This document shows, piece after piece, positions 4,881 to 33,683 of a stretch of 33,783 nucleotides of DNA; within the stretch, counting starts at the first letter, position 1, and the number at the start of each line of letters is the position of its first letter. Origin of the DNA: an uncultured Bacilli bacterium. GTDB taxonomy: Bacteria; Bacillota_I; Bacilli_A; RF39; UBA660. A program made the translations under genes and the position numbers. Under the pieces are notes generated by a model. That model did no database searches. It saw nothing but the letters and a program-made list of their open reading frames with translations, and was not told the origin of the DNA. Location of the stretch: positions 1 through 33,783 of the forward strand of contig CANPXO010000008.1 in NCBI GenBank assembly GCA_947586205.1. The letters run 5' to 3'.

Positions 4881-4905
4881 ATATGATGAATTTTATCACC
4901 ATATT
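4881..4905 (-). terminator. Hairpin plus T-run after the stop codon of 4904..6385; contains a 21-bp sequence repeated at 7956-7976
   Basis: Minus strand ATATGGTGA-TAAAAT-TCATCATAT followed by TTTTTTC. Confidence 0.55.
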
Positions 4906-6385
4906 ACAAAGAAAGACGAAACATATTGTCGAAACTACCATCACCAGTAACTAGTAAAACAGAGGTTGATAAGTAAACAGAAGGATAAATATTATATACA
5001 CCCCAAAGCCAATCGCTATGTAATTGTCCTTTAAGTATAGAAAAGCTGCATGGGGAATTTATAAAATCACTAGGTGTCATAGTCCATAAGTTATTATTAT
5101 AAAACATCCAATTGTTGATATTACAATTTAAATTTTCCTCAAGATTCCACTCACCCATTTTAATATTCTGACATTTTGTTTGATTTAATTCAGTTGCATT
5201 TCCTATAGTTGCAAAACCATAATCACTTGGATAAATAAGGCCCACTTTCCCTTTCCAACTTGTAGTTTTTTCTACATTATCATTACAATCCGAAACACTA
5301 TACTGTTTACAACTATCGCCTGTAGTATTACTTCTTTCGATATTATAGGCTTGTATCACATTGATATCAGCATTAGATTGTCCTTGAAAACTACTACCCA
5401 TATTCCATGTTACTTCTTCTAACATCTTTTTTAAGTTTTCAGGTATTCCACTTTCTACAAAATCACAAGATACTCTTGACCCATTCGCATACTTATAGCA
5501 GCTACCTTTTTCACGATTCCAATATAAGCTATTATTGATATATTCATTTTTTTGTATTACCCCTTCATTGTTTTCCAATTCATTTCTATCATACCCATTA
5601 TTTAATAATTTCATAATATCACTATTACTCCACTCATTAACACCATGTCCATTATTTATATTTGATGCAGAAATATCCCACGCAAACTCTCCAATAGAAT
5701 CTTGTTTTACTAATTTTATTCTTTGTCCTTCTGGAGTATTGACAAGCCCTATGACTCTCCAAATTTGTCCATCAATATTAACATAGTTATGAACATAGTC
5801 AGTCGGATTACTAATGGCATCATAATTTTTTCCAGCATATCTTCGTTCTTCCTGTTTTAAATTATCTACTTGTTCTTTTGTTCCTTCCCAAGTAATATCT
5901 GCACTACTATGGTCTATTAAATAAAGTCCTGATACTCCACTATTTTCTTCTTGAATAGATAATTTTTGAATGTATTCCACAAAATTTTCTCCCTTTTTAA
6001 AATACAAATTACACTTAGTTCTAGATGTTGTCATTCCCTTTACTTGAACAATACAATCATTTGTCATAGAAACTGTAATATTTGGATCTTTCTCACCATT
6101 CACTCCACAGTAACTGTTTTTTGTATCTAATCGGTATCCCGCATCTTTACTGGGCATTTCTTTTTGTATTTTATATTCATGATTATCATTCATTTGATAA
6201 TAAGCAAAATAAAGATTTCCTGGGTCTTGGACAGTCCCTTTGATAACATTCTGATTTGTTTTCACCTCAAATACGGCAAATGTTCGATAAAAAACTACGC
6301 CTGCAACCAATAAAATACATGTTATGGTAAATACAATAATTCCAAATTGTTTATGATTTCTTTCTTTAAACTTTTTTAGTTTCAT
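4904..6385 (-). CDS. Modular membrane-anchored surface protein (shared 'MKLKKFKE' N-terminal module, DUF6273-like C-terminal region)
   Basis: N-terminal ~130 aa paralogous to 14697..15962 and 31818..33683; YVNIDGQIWRVIGLVN and ...PSVYLSTSVLLVTGDGSFDN... motifs. Confidence 0.75.
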   Translation of the reverse strand: MKLKKFKERNHKQFGIIVFTITCILLVAGVVFYRTFAVFEVKTNQNVIKGTVQDPGNLYFAYYQMNDNHEYKIQKEMPSKDAGYRLDTKNSYCGVNGEKDPNITVSMTNDCIVQVKGMTTSRTKCNLYFKKGENFVEYIQKLSIQEENSGVSGLYLIDHSSADITWEGTKEQVDNLKQEERRYAGKNYDAISNPTDYVHNYVNIDGQIWRVIGLVNTPEGQRIKLVKQDSIGEFAWDISASNINNGHGVNEWSNSDIMKLLNNGYDRNELENNEGVIQKNEYINNSLYWNREKGSCYKYANGSRVSCDFVESGIPENLKKMLEEVTWNMGSSFQGQSNADINVIQAYNIERSNTTGDSCKQYSVSDCNDNVEKTTSWKGKVGLIYPSDYGFATIGNATELNQTKCQNIKMGEWNLEENLNCNINNWMFYNNNLWTMTPSDFINSPCSFSILKGQLHSDWLWGVYNIYPSVYLSTSVLLVTGDGSFDNMFRLSL

Positions 6386-6957: not shown

Positions 6958-7824
6958 TTAATTTCTATTTTCTTCTTTTAACTTTTCAATTTCTGTTATT
7001 GATAATCCTGTAAGATCCATAATTTCCTGAATATCATATTTTTTTTCTAGCATTGATTTTGCAATTTCAATGTTCCTGTTATTCGTAGCTTCTTCAGCCG
7101 CTTCTTCCTTAGCAAGAGAGATTCTCGTATTCGTAAGACGTTCTTTGTCTTCTTCTTCAGAAACTGTCCTTATAAATGTTCCATCACTATTTAATATATA
7201 CATTTTCTGATCAAACTCCTTTACTAATTCATCTTTCTTGGATAATTCTACAAGTTCTTCTTCACTTGCTCCTAACATCACTAGATGAATATTCTCTTTG
7301 TCTCCTTGTATGTTCTTATCATACCATTCTTTTTTTACATTTTCAATATTGATTGTAATCATTTTAAAATGGTCAACATATGGAGTTAAAGTTTCTTCAT
7401 CTAAGAGTCTATAAATTTTCTTCTTTCCTTCACTTTCATTCTTATTGAAATCGAAGTCTATATGAATGAAGTCGCTTTTGGTGTCGTATTCTTCTCCTCT
7501 TTGAACTTTTTGAGAGTAAAAAGAAGTAAAGTAAGCTAGGTTTCGTACTCTTGTTGCAAGGTCAAAACTCGTATTCACCTCACAATTGAGAAAATTGCCA
7601 TCTTTAGTTTGTAATAAAACATCTAAGACTTTGACTCTTTCTTTTTTATTACGAACAGCAAGTTCAGTGGGAAAGAATTCTAACACCTCGACGGGTTCTC
7701 CTAAAGCTTCAGATAAAACGGCATTCATAAGCCTCGTATCATCAGGATTTGCAAAAACAGTTTTGAAAAGTCGATCGGTACGTACACTTAAATATACGTT
7801 AGAATCAGTTGTTGTATCTGTCAT
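6958..7824 (-). CDS. Rpn family / PD-(D/E)XK nuclease family transposase-like protein
   Basis: RTDRLFKTVFANPDDTRLMNAVLSEALGEPVE..., LDVLLQTKDGNFLNCEVN..., C-terminal LEKKYDIQEIMDLTGLSITEIEKL. Confidence 0.8.
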   Translation of the reverse strand: MTDTTTDSNVYLSVRTDRLFKTVFANPDDTRLMNAVLSEALGEPVEVLEFFPTELAVRNKKERVKVLDVLLQTKDGNFLNCEVNTSFDLATRVRNLAYFTSFYSQKVQRGEEYDTKSDFIHIDFDFNKNESEGKKKIYRLLDEETLTPYVDHFKMITINIENVKKEWYDKNIQGDKENIHLVMLGASEEELVELSKKDELVKEFDQKMYILNSDGTFIRTVSEEEDKERLTNTRISLAKEEAAEEATNNRNIEIAKSMLEKKYDIQEIMDLTGLSITEIEKLKEENRN

Positions 7825-14696: not shown

Positions 14697-15962
14697 ATGA
14701 AACTAAAAAGATTTAAAGAAAAAGATAACAAAAGAATAGGAATTCTTATATTTACAATAGTTTGTATTTCTCTTGTATCAGGTGCAATTTTGTATCGAAC
14801 ATTTGCTATATTCGAAGTAAAAACAAGCCAAAATGTTATTAAAGGAACTGTACAAGACCCTGGTAATATTTATTTTGCTTTTTATGTAAATGATGGAACA
14901 GAAGATAAAATTCAAAAAGAAATGCCTACTAAGAATTATGTTTTAGATGAGGATAAAAGTTACTGTGGAGTAAATGGAGAAAGAGATAATAAAATTAAAG
15001 TCACTTTAACAGATGAATATGGAATTTATGTCACTGGAGTCACAACTTCAAGAACAAAGTGTAATTTATATTTTGTAAGTGGAGCATTTATTTTAGGAAA
15101 ACCAATCAAAGCAATTACTAGTGGAGAAGGTCTTTATGAAGTGACTCATGAAGATACAAGTGGAACCATAAATGATACTGGTTTTAAAGAAACAGAATTT
15201 CGATATGCAGGTAATAATCCAAACAATTATGTAACATTTAATGATGAGAAATGGAGAATTATTGGACTGGTAAATGTCATGACAAGTGATAATACAGTAG
15301 AACAAAGAGTCAAGATTACTAGAAGTGAAAGTATAGGGAATATTGCTTGGAATACAAATAATATTAATGATTGGACCCAAGCAAGTCTACAACAATTATT
15401 AAATACTGGAAATTACTATACTAAAACAGGTGATTATTCTGAAAATGGTTTAACTGAAAGTGCCAAACAAATGATAGAAGAAGTGACTTGGAACATAGGT
15501 AGTAGTAAACTTGAAAATACACTTTCCAACAATTATTATACTAACGAAAGAGGAAATAACACGCCTTATAGTCACCCTTATACATGGATTGGAAAAATAG
15601 CTCTTTTTTATCCAAGTGATTACGCATATGCAACAAGTGGAAGTGAAACTTATGCTAGACAAAATTGTTTAAACAGTTTAGTATATAACTGGGAAAAAGA
15701 AAGAGATCCAACATCTTACGAAAACTGTGTATTAAATGACTGGCTTTGGGATTCACAATCTTATCAACATTCACTTACATCGGCTTGGGACGGAGAAAGC
15801 GATTTAATTCGTATTACTTCATATGGAGATACTCGACGAAATACAACTAGTAATACATCAGCTATTAAACCAACTCTCTATCTAAAACAAAATGTTAAAA
15901 TTGTGAATGATGATCAAGACGGAAGTTATGATAAACCTTATAATTTAAAACTTGTTGAATAA
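14697..15962 (+). CDS. Modular membrane-anchored surface protein (shared N-terminal module, DUF6273-like C-terminal region)
   Basis: MKLKRFKEKDNKRIGILIFTIVCISLVSGAILYRTFAIFEVKTSQNVIKGTVQDPGN; YVTFNDEKWRIIGLVN; IKPTLYLKQNVKIVNDDQDGSYDKPYNL. Confidence 0.75.
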   Translation: MKLKRFKEKDNKRIGILIFTIVCISLVSGAILYRTFAIFEVKTSQNVIKGTVQDPGNIYFAFYVNDGTEDKIQKEMPTKNYVLDEDKSYCGVNGERDNKIKVTLTDEYGIYVTGVTTSRTKCNLYFVSGAFILGKPIKAITSGEGLYEVTHEDTSGTINDTGFKETEFRYAGNNPNNYVTFNDEKWRIIGLVNVMTSDNTVEQRVKITRSESIGNIAWNTNNINDWTQASLQQLLNTGNYYTKTGDYSENGLTESAKQMIEEVTWNIGSSKLENTLSNNYYTNERGNNTPYSHPYTWIGKIALFYPSDYAYATSGSETYARQNCLNSLVYNWEKERDPTSYENCVLNDWLWDSQSYQHSLTSAWDGESDLIRITSYGDTRRNTTSNTSAIKPTLYLKQNVKIVNDDQDGSYDKPYNLKLVE

Positions 15963-17597: not shown

Positions 17598-19421
17598 CTA
17601 TGCTTGACTAATTCCTTTTTGACCAAGCAAATGTTGTCTTAATCTTAATAGGTCAGCGGAATTTACTGTGGTATTATTTGCAAGTCTTGCTGACTCTAAG
17701 TAAGCTCCATCTAATGAAATTTGCCCAAGTAAATATTGACGCATTTTTAAAAGGTCGGCTGAATTAATAATTCCATCAGAGGTCAAATCGCCATAAATGA
17801 CTATGGAATATGTTTCACCTGATGCAAATGTAACTGTCGTTCCTGTTGTAATCTTTTCAGTATCTCCCATGACAGAACCATTTGCTTTTTTAAATGTTAA
17901 TTCACTTCCTGTTGTCTTGGCTTTTAAAGTTCCAACTGTCGTATCTAAAGCTAAATTCGTGATAAAATTCCCTTTTTTATTTAATCCCATGTTACTTAAA
18001 TGTGTAGCTACCGTAAGAGTTTTTGGAATTTCTTCTGGGGCTGTTCCAGGAGTAGATACTTGAGGTGTTGCTGGAGGATTTGTTGGTGTACTTTGTGTAT
18101 TTCCTGTCCCTCCTACATAAATACCATCACTGTTTTTTATAGAACCAGCTGAAGCATAAACCAAACCTGCTAATGCTGGATTCGATTCATTAGAATTTGC
18201 TCCAATATTAAAGAAATTATAAAATCCTTCATAAGTTTGTCCTTTATAAGTAAATTTAGCTCCATTTGTTGTATTACTTATTTTACTTCCACTTTCTTGT
18301 CTTGCTAAAGCAGCTAAATAAATAGGACTTACATTAAATGTTTTTCCTGCTTCCATAAATATACTAGAATAAGGAACATTATCAACCGCATCATTCCCAT
18401 TCATAAATGTTGGCTCTAATATGCTTTTGACTCCACTTTCTGTCTGTATTTCATTATAACTTATATTTTCAAACATAAATATACGACTTTCTTCCAAAAA
18501 GTTTCTTGGATCTAAATAATAGGCTACTGTTTCTAATGTAGCAATATACCAACTTCCTTCTGTATTAATTCTTTCTGGATCTACACAAGATGGGCAACTT
18601 GTTTCTTGAATCGAACCGACTGTTCTTTGAGTTATAGCAGTTGCATTAAAGTCTAAACCTGTTTTTAAAGAGACAAATGTCCAATTTGGATGAATTTCAT
18701 GTAAACTTCTTAAATACTTTTTATAACTTTCAGGAAATCCTTGTTCATCTAATTTTTTTTCAAATTCTTGATCTTTTACTTCACTTGTTCCCCCAGTCTT
18801 TACTCCCCTTGTCGGGTGTTTTGTAGTCTCTGGCATATTTTCAAATATTGGAATAGTGAAATTAAATGGAGAATTTAATAATTCTGATTTTTTATAACTT
18901 TGATAAGTTGTATATGCTTCACTGTAAGGGGCTTCTATATTCGCCATATATTGATGATTATTCACAGAATAACTAGAATTTGGATTTACATTAAACTTTT
19001 TTAAATAACCAGTGAACTGTCCTGCCGATACATAACCAGAAGAAATAAATTCTGCCCCACCCATGATGGCTTTTTTAGGACTTGTCCAAGGTCTACCATA
19101 AGACACTGGAATTGTATTTGTTAAACTAATGTATTGTCCACAGATATAGCCTGTGTCTTTAGAATATTCTACTTTATACCAACCTTGTGTACAACCTTCA
19201 CCACTTACTAAATTTGTATCTAATACAGTTACATAGTCCCCTTTCGATAAATAATCTAAAATATCTGCCTCTATTGTGGCCTCTTTTCTTAAGCGAACAC
19301 CTTCTCCTGTTATTTGACCGAACATGCTTGCATTTGTATATGGAATATAACTAAACACTGATATAAAAAGAAAGCAAAAAACTAGAGTAATAGAACAGAT
19401 TTTTCTAAAAATTTTTTTCAT
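17598..19421 (-). CDS. SH3-domain N-acetylglucosaminidase (autolysin-like) with C-terminal dockerin-like repeats
   Basis: SH3 (GVRLRKEATIEADILDYLSKGDYVTVL); glucosaminidase (SYKKYLRSLHEIHPNWTFVSLKTGLDF..., LAALARQESGS); dockerin-like pair GDLTSDGIINSADLLKMRQYLLG / ANNTTVNSADLLRLRQHLLG. Confidence 0.85.
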   Translation of the reverse strand: MKKIFRKICSITLVFCFLFISVFSYIPYTNASMFGQITGEGVRLRKEATIEADILDYLSKGDYVTVLDTNLVSGEGCTQGWYKVEYSKDTGYICGQYISLTNTIPVSYGRPWTSPKKAIMGGAEFISSGYVSAGQFTGYLKKFNVNPNSSYSVNNHQYMANIEAPYSEAYTTYQSYKKSELLNSPFNFTIPIFENMPETTKHPTRGVKTGGTSEVKDQEFEKKLDEQGFPESYKKYLRSLHEIHPNWTFVSLKTGLDFNATAITQRTVGSIQETSCPSCVDPERINTEGSWYIATLETVAYYLDPRNFLEESRIFMFENISYNEIQTESGVKSILEPTFMNGNDAVDNVPYSSIFMEAGKTFNVSPIYLAALARQESGSKISNTTNGAKFTYKGQTYEGFYNFFNIGANSNESNPALAGLVYASAGSIKNSDGIYVGGTGNTQSTPTNPPATPQVSTPGTAPEEIPKTLTVATHLSNMGLNKKGNFITNLALDTTVGTLKAKTTGSELTFKKANGSVMGDTEKITTGTTVTFASGETYSIVIYGDLTSDGIINSADLLKMRQYLLGQISLDGAYLESARLANNTTVNSADLLRLRQHLLGQKGISQA

Positions 19422-19550
19422 TTTTTGCCTCCTTTTATTCGACAATATTATACCATTTTTTATATGGTAATTAAATAGTATCACAAACCCTCATGTAAAT
19501 AAAGTGTCGAGTGTTTTTTCCTTTTCAAAAAATTGCACTTCTGAAATGGG

Positions 19551-21867: not shown

Positions 21868-22320
21868 TGGCTAAAAGTTTAGCACATACCAAGTATATGT
21901 GCAAGTACCATATTGTATATTCCCAAATATAGGAGAAAAATCATATACAATAAATTAAGAAAGGAAATCCAAAAGTATATAAAGGATTTATGCAAATGGA
22001 AGGGAGTAGAAATCCTAGAAGGACATATGATGCCTGACCATGTGCACTTGTTAGTAGAAATCCCACCAAGAATCAGTGTATCAAGTTTCATGGGGTATTT
22101 GAAAGGAAAAAGTAGTTTGATGATCTTTGAAAAGAATCCAAATTTGAAATATAAGTTTGGGAATAGAAATTTTTGGGCAACGGGATATTATGTAAGTACA
22201 GTAGGACTCAATGAAGCAACAATAAGGAAATATATAAGAGAACAAGAAAATGAAGATATGATGGAAGACAAATTAAGTAAGAAAGAATATATTAACCCTT
22301 TTAAAGGTTTGTTAAAGTAG
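21867..22320 (+). pseudogene. tnpA: IS200-like transposase TnpA, frameshifted near 21910-21932
   Basis: ATG at 21867 gives MAKSLAHTKYMCKYHIVYSQI*; the rest (YIPKYRRKIIYNK...GHMMPDHVHLLVEIPP...) continues in another frame. Confidence 0.85.
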
Positions 22321-29516: not shown

Positions 29517-30794
29517 GTGATACCTATGATTTTAAGAGAATTATCGATTGAAGAATTTACAGACTTTGTATCCGCTAGTCCACTTTGGACTCATTATCAA
29601 ACGATTAACTATGCTCTTTTAATGGGAGAAAACGGTTATGATTATGATTTGATTGGTTTTGTGAATGAATATGGTCAGATAAAAGCGGCTTCTTTAATTC
29701 TTACAAAAACAATTAAATTTCATACCAAATATGGTTATGCACCTAAAGGATTTATTCTAGATTATTTTAATCAAGGCTTATTAAAAGAATTTGTAGAAGC
29801 CTTAAAAGCTTATTATAAAAAGAAACATGTGGTATTTATTAAAATCAATCCTGAAATTGCTATAAGTGAAATAGATACAACAAACTTTGTAAAAACTTAT
29901 AATTGGAATTATGATATAAAAGAAATTTTAGAAGATAATGGCTTTATTAAGTTAAAAGATAATTTATATTTTGAGTCTCTCCTCCCAAGATTCAGTGCAG
30001 TGATTTCTTTAAAAAATTATGATATTAAAGAAATCAGTAAAAATACTAGAAATAAAATTAATCGTTCTACTTTAAAGGGGTTACACTTAGAAAAAGCAGA
30101 GAAATCTGGAATTGATATTTTACAAAATTTTATTGCAAAAAAACGAAATACTCGTGACTTTTACTATAAAGATTATTATAATGTGTTTGAAAGAAATGAT
30201 ATGATTGATTTATTTTTAGTGAATATTCATCCTGATGAGTTTTTAGTAAATGCTCGTAAGCTTTATGAATTAGAATTAGAAAAAAATAATCATTATCAAT
30301 CTTTATTAGAAAAAGAAAGTACAAATAAAAATATTAATCAAAAGATGGATTCAGATCGAAAGTTACTTTCTTATAAACATGATGTAGAACTTGCAACAGA
30401 ATTAAATAAACAAAAGAATCGTATTTATATCGCAGGTGCTTTAGTCATTCATCAAAAGAATCGTATACAAATATTAATGAGTGGATATGATAAGAAATAT
30501 AAATCATTTGATGCCAATTATTTTTTACATCATTCCATATTAGAGTATTATAAAGAAGATTATGATTATGCGGAATTAAATGGAATGACAGGAGATTTTT
30601 CTTTAGAAAATCCATATAACGGATTAAATCAATTTAAGTTAGGTTTTCGTCCAAGAGTTTATGAATATATTGGAGAGTATGATTTGCCAATTGATTCTAA
30701 AAAATATTATAAGTTAAGAAGCAGTGGGGTTTTAGCTAAAATATTTAATAAAACAGATATAAAAAAGAATAAAAAGGAGAAGAAAAATGATTAA
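29517..30794 (+). CDS. FemAB/FemX-like peptidoglycan bridge aminoacyltransferase
   Basis: FTDFVSASPLWTHYQT..., GYAPKGFILDY, LNGMTGDFSLENPYNGLNQFKLGFRPRVYEYIGEYDLPID. Confidence 0.85.
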   Translation: MIPMILRELSIEEFTDFVSASPLWTHYQTINYALLMGENGYDYDLIGFVNEYGQIKAASLILTKTIKFHTKYGYAPKGFILDYFNQGLLKEFVEALKAYYKKKHVVFIKINPEIAISEIDTTNFVKTYNWNYDIKEILEDNGFIKLKDNLYFESLLPRFSAVISLKNYDIKEISKNTRNKINRSTLKGLHLEKAEKSGIDILQNFIAKKRNTRDFYYKDYYNVFERNDMIDLFLVNIHPDEFLVNARKLYELELEKNNHYQSLLEKESTNKNINQKMDSDRKLLSYKHDVELATELNKQKNRIYIAGALVIHQKNRIQILMSGYDKKYKSFDANYFLHHSILEYYKEDYDYAELNGMTGDFSLENPYNGLNQFKLGFRPRVYEYIGEYDLPIDSKKYYKLRSSGVLAKIFNKTDIKKNKKEKKND

Positions 30795-31464
30795 AAAGAA
30801 AAAAAATGGGGAGTTAATTGTTATTTCAGGTACTACTTGTGCAGGTAAAGGAACAATCGTAAAAGAACTTGTAAAAAGAAATGAAAACTTAAAAGTATCA
30901 ATCTCTTACACTTCTAGAGAAAAAAGAGAAAATGAAGTGGATGGAAAAGATTACTTTTTTGTAACACCAGAAGAATTTGAGAAAAAAATTCAAAATGAAG
31001 ATTTCTTAGAATATGCTAAAGTTCAGTATGGTAAGTATTATGGTACTCCTAAAAAAGAAGTAAAAGAACTTTTAGCTAGTGGAAAAGATGTGATACTAGA
31101 AATTGATGTTCAAGGTGCTAAACAAATTAAAGAAATGTTTCCGGAAACAATTTTAATTTTTATTCTTGCTCCGAGTATGGAAGAAGTAAAAAGAAGAATT
31201 AAAGCAAGAGGAATGGAAAATAATGAACAAATTCTTAAAAGATTCCAAGTTGCTTATCAAGAAATTAATGAAATCAATAAATATAATTATGTTGTTGTGA
31301 ATGACATATTAGAAGATGCTGTACAAAAAGTAGAAGCTATTTTAATCAGTGAAAAATGTAGAGTAGATAGAATTGAAGAAATAGCTGTGGAAAATGAAGA
31401 AGAAATTATTCATGAATTCTTAATGGATAAAGATTTTGATAATACACCTTTAGATATTAATTAA
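30787..31464 (+). CDS. gmk: Guanylate kinase
   Basis: LIVISGTTCAGKGTIVKEL, SISYTSREKRENEVDGKDYFFVTPEEFE, ILEIDVQGAKQIKE. Confidence 0.95.
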   Translation: MIKKKKNGELIVISGTTCAGKGTIVKELVKRNENLKVSISYTSREKRENEVDGKDYFFVTPEEFEKKIQNEDFLEYAKVQYGKYYGTPKKEVKELLASGKDVILEIDVQGAKQIKEMFPETILIFILAPSMEEVKRRIKARGMENNEQILKRFQVAYQEINEINKYNYVVVNDILEDAVQKVEAILISEKCRVDRIEEIAVENEEEIIHEFLMDKDFDNTPLDIN

Positions 31465-31704
31465 ATATTGTAAATAATCATAAACCAGTTATATTTAATG
31501 ATAAAACTTTAATGACATAGTTTAATTCATGTTTAAAGATACTTTTAAAATTGTAATCTTCAATTTCTTTGATTTTTCTTCTTTCTTATTGATTTTTTCT
31601 GTATTTAGTAATAATATCATAGAATCTTTTTGGGTAAAAGATATTTGGGTTTTTGAGATTTAAGAACATCCTTTTTTGTGTTTTATTCTATTTTCTTTAT
31701 TCAA

Positions 31705-31740
31705 AAAAGACAAGAGGTTTTTTATTTTCTCTTGTCTTTT
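31705..31740. terminator. Bidirectional terminator
   Basis: AAAAGACAAGAG (31705-31716) / CTCTTGTCTTTT (31729-31740), 12-bp perfect stem with flanking T-runs. Confidence 0.8.
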
Positions 31741-31781
31741 CTTTCTCAAATAATTTTCAATTTTCTTTCTTTTCTATATCA

Positions 31782-31810
31782 CTTATCTACAAATTTACAA
31801 TGTGGATAAG
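31782..31810 (-). other. Hairpin 7 bp downstream of the surface-protein stop codon, 9/10-bp stem, no strong T-run
   Basis: CTTATCTACA (31782-31791) / TGTGGATAAG (31801-31810), 9-nt loop. Confidence 0.6.
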
Positions 31811-31817
31811 TAAAGGG

Positions 31818-33683
31818 CTAGGGTGTACAAACGACACGAAAACTAGCATAAACATTCGCTCGACCGTAGTCATTATCGAAAGCCGCGAGACCCGCGTCCG
31901 TGCCGTCTGTAACATTACCACCACGGATGAACCACGGATTGTAGCCAGAGACAAATAAAGCAGTGGCTCCATTGTAACTTCCTATAGTTCTTGGAGTTGT
32001 GCCACTATCATAATATACTTGATAAAATGGTCCAAATTCTTTTGTTCCATCTCCTAAATGTCCTCTTTTAAAATCTTGGCTTGTTATATTATAATCATAT
32101 AAGTCATAATATTTTGAAGAAGGCCATGAAACTCCATTTATTTTGCTTTCATCATTAGAATCATTAGAATATGGTCCATTAAATCCTGAATTATTTTCAG
32201 AATCTGATCCACTTGTTGGTGATGAATTAATATTACTTCCTTGCATAACCCCCATCACATATTCCCATGCTCCACCAGCCATATCATAAACTCCTGAATA
32301 ATTGCCTGTTGTACTTGCTACTTGACTTGCTTTATTATAATAACTCAAAACTTTTGTACCATCTGTTGTTAAAGATACGTGTTCATAAGAATTACAATCT
32401 TTCATTGAATTTGTATATCCACATATTGGTGCTTCTTTTGCTGACATGCCTGTTATATAACTACCATTATTATTAATTCTTACTTCTTCACATTTTGTCT
32501 CTCCATTTTCTTCATTACATCTTCCATATTTACTGTTTGTTAAATATGCTACTGCTCCCCATTCTGTATTTTTCATCATATGACTTTCTAAGTCTCTTTT
32601 ATATTCATAACTTGTATAAAAAGCATTTGCTACTTGAATATTTCTCCAACTATAAACATTTGGTTTAATGATAACTTTTGTTGAATTTGTTTCATTATGT
32701 TGAGCTCCTGCTTTATTCCAACTATTTATAGGCATGACACTTCCATCACTATTTTGATTATATCCTGTTTCAAACTTTCCAACCCAAAAACCATTACTAT
32801 CAAATGCTTCAAAGGCCGGATGAACGATTGAGTCTCCTTTACTCAATAATGTTGTACTTATTCCTTTATCCTTTGAGCCAAATTCTATCTCAAAGGCATT
32901 ACTGGCTCCCTTATTTCCACCTTCAATGGAGTTATAAAAGCTTTGAACATCTACATGTTGTCCTTTATCTTCGGCAGTAGAATAACTATTAAATGTTTCT
33001 TCATTACCTTGTAATTTATAACTATATCTTGGGATCCATACAAAATAACTTTCAATATTTTCTTCTGGTATTTGTTCTCCAGGTCTATAATTATCTTCTA
33101 CTCCAGTCTTTAGTATCACTGCATTTGCCCATTTTTTATCTGCATATTTATACCAATCACTTGTGATATCTGCTTTATAGACATTTCCACCTTTATCTCC
33201 TGTATATAAATCAGGTCCTTTTGTTTCTGAGATAGTAACTGGTACTAATCTTCCATTTCCTAAATCTGGTATAGCACCATTTAATAATTCTTCTTTATAT
33301 ATTTTCTTAAAATGAAGATAACACTTTGTTTTAGTTGTTGATACATTTTTAATTTCTACACTCCAATTTTCATAGTTCCAATTTACATTACTTATTTTCT
33401 CATTATTTAACATATCTATACAATAACTACTACTTGTATCTAAAGAATAACCATTACTTTTTTTAGGAGCTTCTTTTACAATTTCATTATCTTGGTAAAA
33501 TGCAAATTCTATATCTCCCATACTCTGAACTTCTCCATTAATCACATTTTGATTTATTTTCACTTCAAAGATTGCAAATGTTCTATAGAGTATTACTCCA
33601 CTAACTAACAAAATACAAACAATGGTAAATACAATAATTCCTATACTTTTATTATCTTTTTCTTTGAATCTCTTTAGTTTCAT
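31818..33683 (-). CDS. Modular membrane-anchored surface protein with C-terminal FGE-sulfatase/C-type-lectin-like domain (candidate DGR variable protein)
   Basis: Shared N-terminal module MKLKRFKEKDNKSIGIIVFTIVCILLVSGVILYRTFAIFEVK; YFVWIPRYSYKL; GVYDMAGGAWEYVMGVM; terminal PWFIRGGNVTDGTDAGLAAFDNDYGRANVYASFRVVCTP. Confidence 0.8.
   Translation of the reverse strand: MKLKRFKEKDNKSIGIIVFTIVCILLVSGVILYRTFAIFEVKINQNVINGEVQSMGDIEFAFYQDNEIVKEAPKKSNGYSLDTSSSYCIDMLNNEKISNVNWNYENWSVEIKNVSTTKTKCYLHFKKIYKEELLNGAIPDLGNGRLVPVTISETKGPDLYTGDKGGNVYKADITSDWYKYADKKWANAVILKTGVEDNYRPGEQIPEENIESYFVWIPRYSYKLQGNEETFNSYSTAEDKGQHVDVQSFYNSIEGGNKGASNAFEIEFGSKDKGISTTLLSKGDSIVHPAFEAFDSNGFWVGKFETGYNQNSDGSVMPINSWNKAGAQHNETNSTKVIIKPNVYSWRNIQVANAFYTSYEYKRDLESHMMKNTEWGAVAYLTNSKYGRCNEENGETKCEEVRINNNGSYITGMSAKEAPICGYTNSMKDCNSYEHVSLTTDGTKVLSYYNKASQVASTTGNYSGVYDMAGGAWEYVMGVMQGSNINSSPTSGSDSENNSGFNGPYSNDSNDESKINGVSWPSSKYYDLYDYNITSQDFKRGHLGDGTKEFGPFYQVYYDSGTTPRTIGSYNGATALFVSGYNPWFIRGGNVTDGTDAGLAAFDNDYGRANVYASFRVVCTP

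Follow-up and report, generated by a model that had tools for sequence, protein, structure and literature searches.

In Treponema denticola, one RT serves dispersed CLec targets, which number 2 to 7 per isolate and carry C-terminal VRs; for the remote targets of this species, both a leftover status and continued function have been considered possible (PMC4891356). For Trichodesmium erythraeum, TR/VR homology is reported at 18 loci, of which at least 11 are hypervariable in metagenomes (PMC8867640). In Thiohalocapsa PB-PSB1, VRs match a distant TR at non-adenine sites, which was taken as trans activity, and are diversified in nature (PMC10907252). About 20% of multi-VR DGRs have more than one template, and one atypical case has 6 unique TRs (PMC6642488). 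Surveys of the surroundings of RTs miss remote targets, as was admitted for its own method in PMC8144416.

Here we analyzed a stretch of DNA of 33,783 nucleotides from an uncultured Bacilli bacterium (the window), which is contig C8 of an assembly of 1.48 Mb in 104 contigs (G000). We propose, at a probability of roughly 0.8, that one gene of the window is a trans (remote) target of a DGR located on another contig, C31. At the level of sequence, the elements established are the TR/VR pair, a directional adenine-specific difference between its members, the cassette, a paralog family and a common 3' element.

Results

Target gene and protein

Features of the target locus are given below by window position.

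31818..33683, minus strand: target gene, an ORF of 621 aa with C-terminus ...GGNVTDGTDAGLAAFDNDYGRANVYASFRVVCTP
33549..33683, minus strand: N-terminal anchor segment MKLKRFKEKDNKSIGIIVFTIVCILLVSGVILYRTFAIFEVK, a basic stretch then a hydrophobic one
31821..32810, minus strand: C-terminal FGE-type C-type-lectin-like domain, by profile match to 5VF4
31824..31969, minus strand: variable region (VR), 146 bp, an ungapped match to template TR1 on C31
31824..31844, minus strand: conserved VR 3' end AGTTTTCGTGTCGTTTGTACA, common to TR1 and TR2 (GTTTGTGCA end)
31801..31817, minus strand: 17 bp past the stop codon, CCCTTTACTTATCCACA, identical in the C31 target
31781..31811, minus strand: hairpin directly 3' of the VR (-4.3 kcal/mol as DNA, z = -3.3)

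The encoded protein consists of an N-terminal membrane anchor common to a large family, followed by the C-terminal FGE/C-type-lectin-like domain. About half of its ~45 matches in the own genome comprise the N-terminal anchor only, which is also present in the window genes 4904-6385 and 14697-15962 and in many others. Judging from its composition, the anchor segment probably mediates membrane attachment, and the protein would be displayed on the surface. When a profile of 28 relatives was compared with the PDB, the best match was 5VF4 (TaqVP, a DGR variable protein; E = 6e-5), with SUMF2 and PvdO next, weakly. Pfam FGE-sulfatase was detected in 7/28 relatives at E <= 0.001 and, in the window protein itself, at 0.0055, which misses the cut-off. 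By sequence profile, the C-terminal domain is thus a predicted FGE-type C-type-lectin fold with the VR at its C-terminus, bearing out the reading of this terminus in an earlier note on the same DNA. A fold search with low-confidence predicted structures (predicted twice) returned nothing below E = 1.

The GC content of the VR is 0.507 vs 0.298 in the gene body, and A occupies 45% of third codon positions in the gene body compared with 8% over the final 150 bp. The GC island therefore results largely from missing adenine and is not an independent signal. This loss of adenine fits constant template codons that avoid A, together with A-to-N replacement at variable positions. Horizontal transfer as the source of the GC island was rejected because adenine depletion accounts for the GC content. 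The earlier note had correctly seen a GC-rich gene end but had treated it as a signal of its own. Its placement of a DGR VR at the 3' end of the gene stands, although the VR runs slightly further, to 31969, and the gene lies on the minus strand.

Among the other window genes, 17598-19484 (minus strand) encodes, judging from its sequence, a secreted-looking protein with a dockerin-like repeat at the C-terminus (DGIINSADLLKMRQYLLGQ ... NSADLLRLRQHLLGQ). By eye from the translations, 21913-22320 (plus strand) is an IS200-type transposase-like ORF and 6958-7824 (minus strand) a PD-(D/E)XK/Rpn-type transposase-like ORF.

C31 cassette

A search of the own assembly with the VR as query identified near-repeats on C31, C47, C11, C16 and other contigs. 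The match on C31 (TR1, C31:142-287) lies ~3.4 kb upstream of a DGR-type RT, which is one of three RTs in this genome, located on C31, C11 and C6. The interval between TR1 and the C31 RT contains another template (TR2) and a local target, followed by a MutS-I-like gene and avd.

C31 ~121-300: TR1 unit
C31 ~464-645: TR2 unit
C31 886-2814: local target
C31 2918-3292: MutS-I-like gene (family search: MutS_I)
C31 3282-3701: avd (NF033474 and PF22296, both over cut-off)
C31 3674-4714: RT (RVT_1)

The C31 RT matched RVT_1 at 8e-16 and PHROG 1423 (reverse transcriptase) at 1e-104. It contains HMDD and IPIGNYTSQ, the latter of which we take to be the GxxxSQ-type motif of DGR RTs. The product of avd scored 84.9 bits against NF033474 DivGenRetAVD (cut-off 80), 1.5e-20 against PF22296 bAvd and 6e-26 against the PHROG 'Avd protein of DGR'; a search for solved structures related to Avd found none. 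The earlier note had suspected a remote DGR target with its RT and template outside the window. Both were located on C31 of the same assembly, where the near-repeat of the VR differs from it chiefly at template adenines ~3.4 kb from the RT, and the TR1/VR pair, together with the C31 RT and avd, supports that suspicion.

The TR1 and TR2 units have 326 bp in common at 82% identity, and their differences (7/51 A, 18/128 non-A) are without A bias. Further template units may be missing, given that contig C31 starts only ~120 bp before TR1. A solitary third unit was observed at C42:2933-3195 (minus strand; in L275), with conserved leader, GTTTGTGCA end and spacer and a shrunken, adenine-poor core; this unit could be a decayed template.

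Adenine-specific differences between template and variable regions

Counted by template base, mismatches from TR1 to the window VR affect A at 16/38, C at 3/30, G at 3/38 and T at 2/40 positions, or A 16/38 and non-A 8/108 overall (Fisher p = 4.5e-6). When the comparison was reversed and the VR taken as template, there was no A excess (4/26), identifying the C31 copy as the template. In the gene bodies of the window and C31 targets, used as a control, 19.6% of A and 25.7% of non-A positions differ, again without A excess. The codons changed from TR1 to the window VR include AAT>TCT, AAC>TAC, AAT>GAT, AAC>GAC, AAC>TAC, AAT>TAT and AAT>GCT, in addition to AGC>GGC, AAA>ATC and CAT>CGA, so the earlier interpretation of NNY codons as altered AAY template codons was right. 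TR2 fits the window VR more poorly than TR1 (21/109 non-A), and no unit fitting better than TR1 was found within the own assembly.

The VR of the C31 local target differs from TR1 at 17/38 A and 2/108 non-A positions (Fisher p = 5e-10). Between the window and C31 VRs, 23/38 template-A columns differ and 10/108 other columns, and at the latter, the TR1 non-A columns, the VRs are closer to each other than are the gene bodies (~25%). Two remote VRs, on C47 (17/37 A, 3/103 non-A, p = 3.5e-9) and on C11 (12/37 A, 4/103 non-A, p = 2e-5), show the same pattern, and the VR at C16_426 gave a Fisher p = 6e-4. These p values are uncorrected for ~17 paralogs x two templates; after such correction, those of the window, C31, C47 and C11 hold and that of C16_426 is marginal. 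Against the template, the remaining paralogs have 18-45% non-A differences, and their A bias is weaker or none. In the closest relative, a sister species from rabbit gut (Lapin-026__bin92, G029), the VR of the nearly identical cassette departs from TR1 at 10/38 A and 2/109 non-A positions. Between the two species, with one genome for each, variation of the C31 VR falls mainly in template A columns.

Putative homing element

The GTTTGTRCA end of the template is kept, among the paralogs, only in the window and C31 targets, and these two are also the only ones to have the 17 bp and a hairpin after it. At the site corresponding to the window hairpin, the C31 target has a stronger one (z = -4.6). 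The VR 3' end at 31824..31844 is the likely counterpart of an initiation-of-mutagenic-homing site, and we take the 3' ends and hairpins of these two targets to resemble the homing site and hairpin of phage BPP-1. The VRs on C47 and C11 are TR1-like, yet have neither the common 3' end nor the hairpin; the putative 3' element may thus not be needed. Adjoining the target gene, window 31563-31799 is an intergenic repeat that recurs on C37 (87% over 243 bp), and window 31700-31799 matches C4 at 91%.

Paralog family and sister species

The window gene is one of ~17 dispersed, mosaic paralogs in its own genome, a few of which are cut by contig ends. In sliding windows, for example, C7_19956 and C17_16264 are 100% identical over one 200-bp window and ~90-94% identical over most others. 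Such mosaicism implies that sequence moves between paralogs. About five of the ~17 carry TR1-like VRs, and several others are frozen between the sister species. Three are frozen with the VR included, namely C7_9317/G029C3, with a body identity of 97.5% and an identical VR, and likewise C16_9871/G029C7 and C28/G029C20. At C57/G029C30, C47/G029C19 and C21/G029C6, the downstream flank is 93-99% identical and the gene is replaced or reshuffled. In the G029 counterpart of the C31 cassette, the RT is 99% identical, the target body 76% identical and the VR different. Across the genus, relatives of the target protein are present in 28/37 species genomes and a bAvd match in 24/37.

The window target has no ortholog in G029, where the orthologous gmk adjoins a different paralog. 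In the own assembly, contig C75 opens (1-1410; L209) with the gmk region of window 30060-31465 in a copy 93.8% identical, after which comes another target paralog; the arrangement could reflect either duplication of the locus or strain variation within the bin. Comparison of C16:426-2357 with G029:C36:6605 revealed bodies 90% identical, a conserved flank and VRs only 48% identical, making this paralog another candidate for a remote target that was rewritten recently.

Two further DGRs of the genome have complete cassettes.

C11:10500-17500 (L033): C11 DGR, own TR/VR, another target type
C6:11000-18000 (L034): C6 DGR, own TR/VR, another target type

Their own TR/VR pairs differ at 15/28 A and 2/70 non-A positions (C11, p = 2e-8) and at 25/38 A and 3/78 non-A positions (C6, p = 7e-13). 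The products of window genes 4904-6385 (minus strand) and 14697-15962 (plus strand) share homology with the C6 target in their C-terminal domains (E = 1e-12 and 2e-26, respectively). As targets of the C6 or C11 DGR they are unsupported, with no A-biased TR match; they are possibly former targets or were never targets.

Template arrays in relatives

In a scan of 86 loci around RTs related to the C31 RT, A-biased TR/VR pairs were found in 28/86, and several loci had arrays of template units.

L082:475-4373 (G037:C5): 11 units
L077:2919-8320 (G038:C44): ~18 units
L074:2463-5596: 11 units
L076:274-5026: 7-8 units
L102:3315-4949: 4 units
L114: 2 units

By comparison, the own genome has two intact units and one degenerate unit. 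The array units are non-coding and located beside DGR RTs, and their hosts are rabbit-gut and other Bacilli MAGs. An origin of the arrays in a single clade was rejected because the RT tree places them in several branches. The L082 units agree at ~95-97% over leader and 3' spacer and at 81-89% over the core, whereas the flanks of the L077 and L074 units are conserved no better than their cores. The local VR of G038 differs from its single best unit at 10/24 A and 0/110 non-A positions, with the next unit at 10/94. In G037, remote VRs in 12 genes favor different units; C1:11994, for example, pairs with TR2336 at 7/109, the next unit being at 13/104. Most of these fits are loose, however. Within the G037 array, changes are more frequent at adenines of the core than at those of the flank (23% vs 4%), and no such excess was seen in the L077 and L074 arrays. 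Template self-mutagenesis is thus unproven as a general rule, also because TR1 and TR2 differ without A bias.

Discussion

According to the mechanism proposed here, TR1 or a closely related unit would be transcribed as the non-coding template, and the DGR RT with Avd, possibly aided by the MutS-I-like protein, would copy this RNA into cDNA with misincorporation at template adenines. The cDNA would home to, and replace, the 3' end of a homologous surface-protein gene, with the conserved VR end and the downstream hairpin as guides. This would rewrite roughly a dozen residues of a protein that is anchored, lectin-like and presumably ligand-binding, with its scaffold left unchanged. We infer that rewriting at the window locus may be current.

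The window VR carries eight non-adenine differences from TR1, four times the count of the C31 target, and hence its last rewriting was either not from TR1 in its present form or took place long ago. These differences suggest an older rewriting, or a template that was lost or has diverged. It is conceivable, though we consider it less likely than not, that the VR was once written by the C31 DGR, or came from a C31-type target through duplication or gene conversion that included the downstream 17 bp, and is no longer diversified. The 8/108 non-A differences and the identity of these 17 bp to the C31 target are in agreement with such a history, as are the three paralogs plainly frozen with respect to G029 and the movement of sequence among mosaic paralogs. 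However, the window VR retains a strong A bias and diverges little at non-A positions when compared with the gene body, and it has kept the template-like 3' end and the hairpin, all of which argue against such a history.

It also appears rather unlikely that the VR was written by a unit other than TR1 which is missing or broken in the assembly. The contig start close to TR1 leaves room for missing units, relatives own 4 to ~18 of them, and a degenerate third unit exists on C42; a sibling with other adenines could also explain several non-A differences (GAT>ACT, GGT>GTT). On the other hand, the assembly holds no better unit, TR2 being worse. That no DGR is involved, and that the paralogs simply diverged under diversifying selection around a conserved GC-rich end, is very improbable: although the family has ~17 members, many without a convincing template match, this reading is contradicted by the way the VR differs from a non-coding repeat next to a DGR RT and avd, namely directionally and specifically at adenines, and by the absence of A bias in the gene body.

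A remote DGR target alone is of a known type; what sets the present system apart is the array organization in relatives together with the mosaic multi-target family. A literature search of limited reach found no description of long template arrays. We tentatively put forward, as a possibility still short of even odds, a DGR variant in which one RT uses a tandem library of leader-TR-spacer units to rewrite a dispersed, recombining surface-lectin family and the templates diversify too. If so, the bacterium would keep an evolving template repertoire along with a stock of receptor variants, some frozen and some active. The arrays make it testable whether each unit has its own targets and whether the templates themselves evolve; if both hold, bacteria would have a modular repertoire of many templates, many receptors and one mutagenic RT, in place of a single template for each receptor. 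How much RT-adjacent surveys can miss is illustrated by the present 1.5 Mb genome of a gut bacterium, which carries three DGRs and, in a single target family, ~17 paralogs.

As in T. denticola, a single RT would serve dispersed CLec targets with C-terminal VRs. That species has one TR per genome (PMC4891356), whereas the system described here has two TRs and a degenerate one as well as ~17 paralogs; its cassette includes a MutS-I-like gene, and arrays occur in its relatives. Several DGR RTs per genome and many remote loci are shared with Trichodesmium, a cyanobacterium with a different genome context, for which template arrays are not mentioned in the part of the account considered here (PMC8867640). 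As in Thiohalocapsa PB-PSB1, the VR matches a TR elsewhere in the genome, but the window VR is an imperfect match at non-A positions and the protein is anchored, not an NTPase-associated sensor (PMC10907252). In its predicted FGE-type C-type-lectin fold and in the position of the VR at the extreme C-terminus, the window protein resembles TaqVP of Thermus aquaticus (5VF4, PMC6328139); TaqVP is a single-domain prophage protein, whereas the window protein adds an N-terminal anchor and ~290 further residues. Finally, the DGR with 6 TRs has few A-to-N changes, whereas an array unit described here pairs with a VR by A-only differences, and the array units, up to ~18, share a conserved leader and 3' spacer (PMC6642488).
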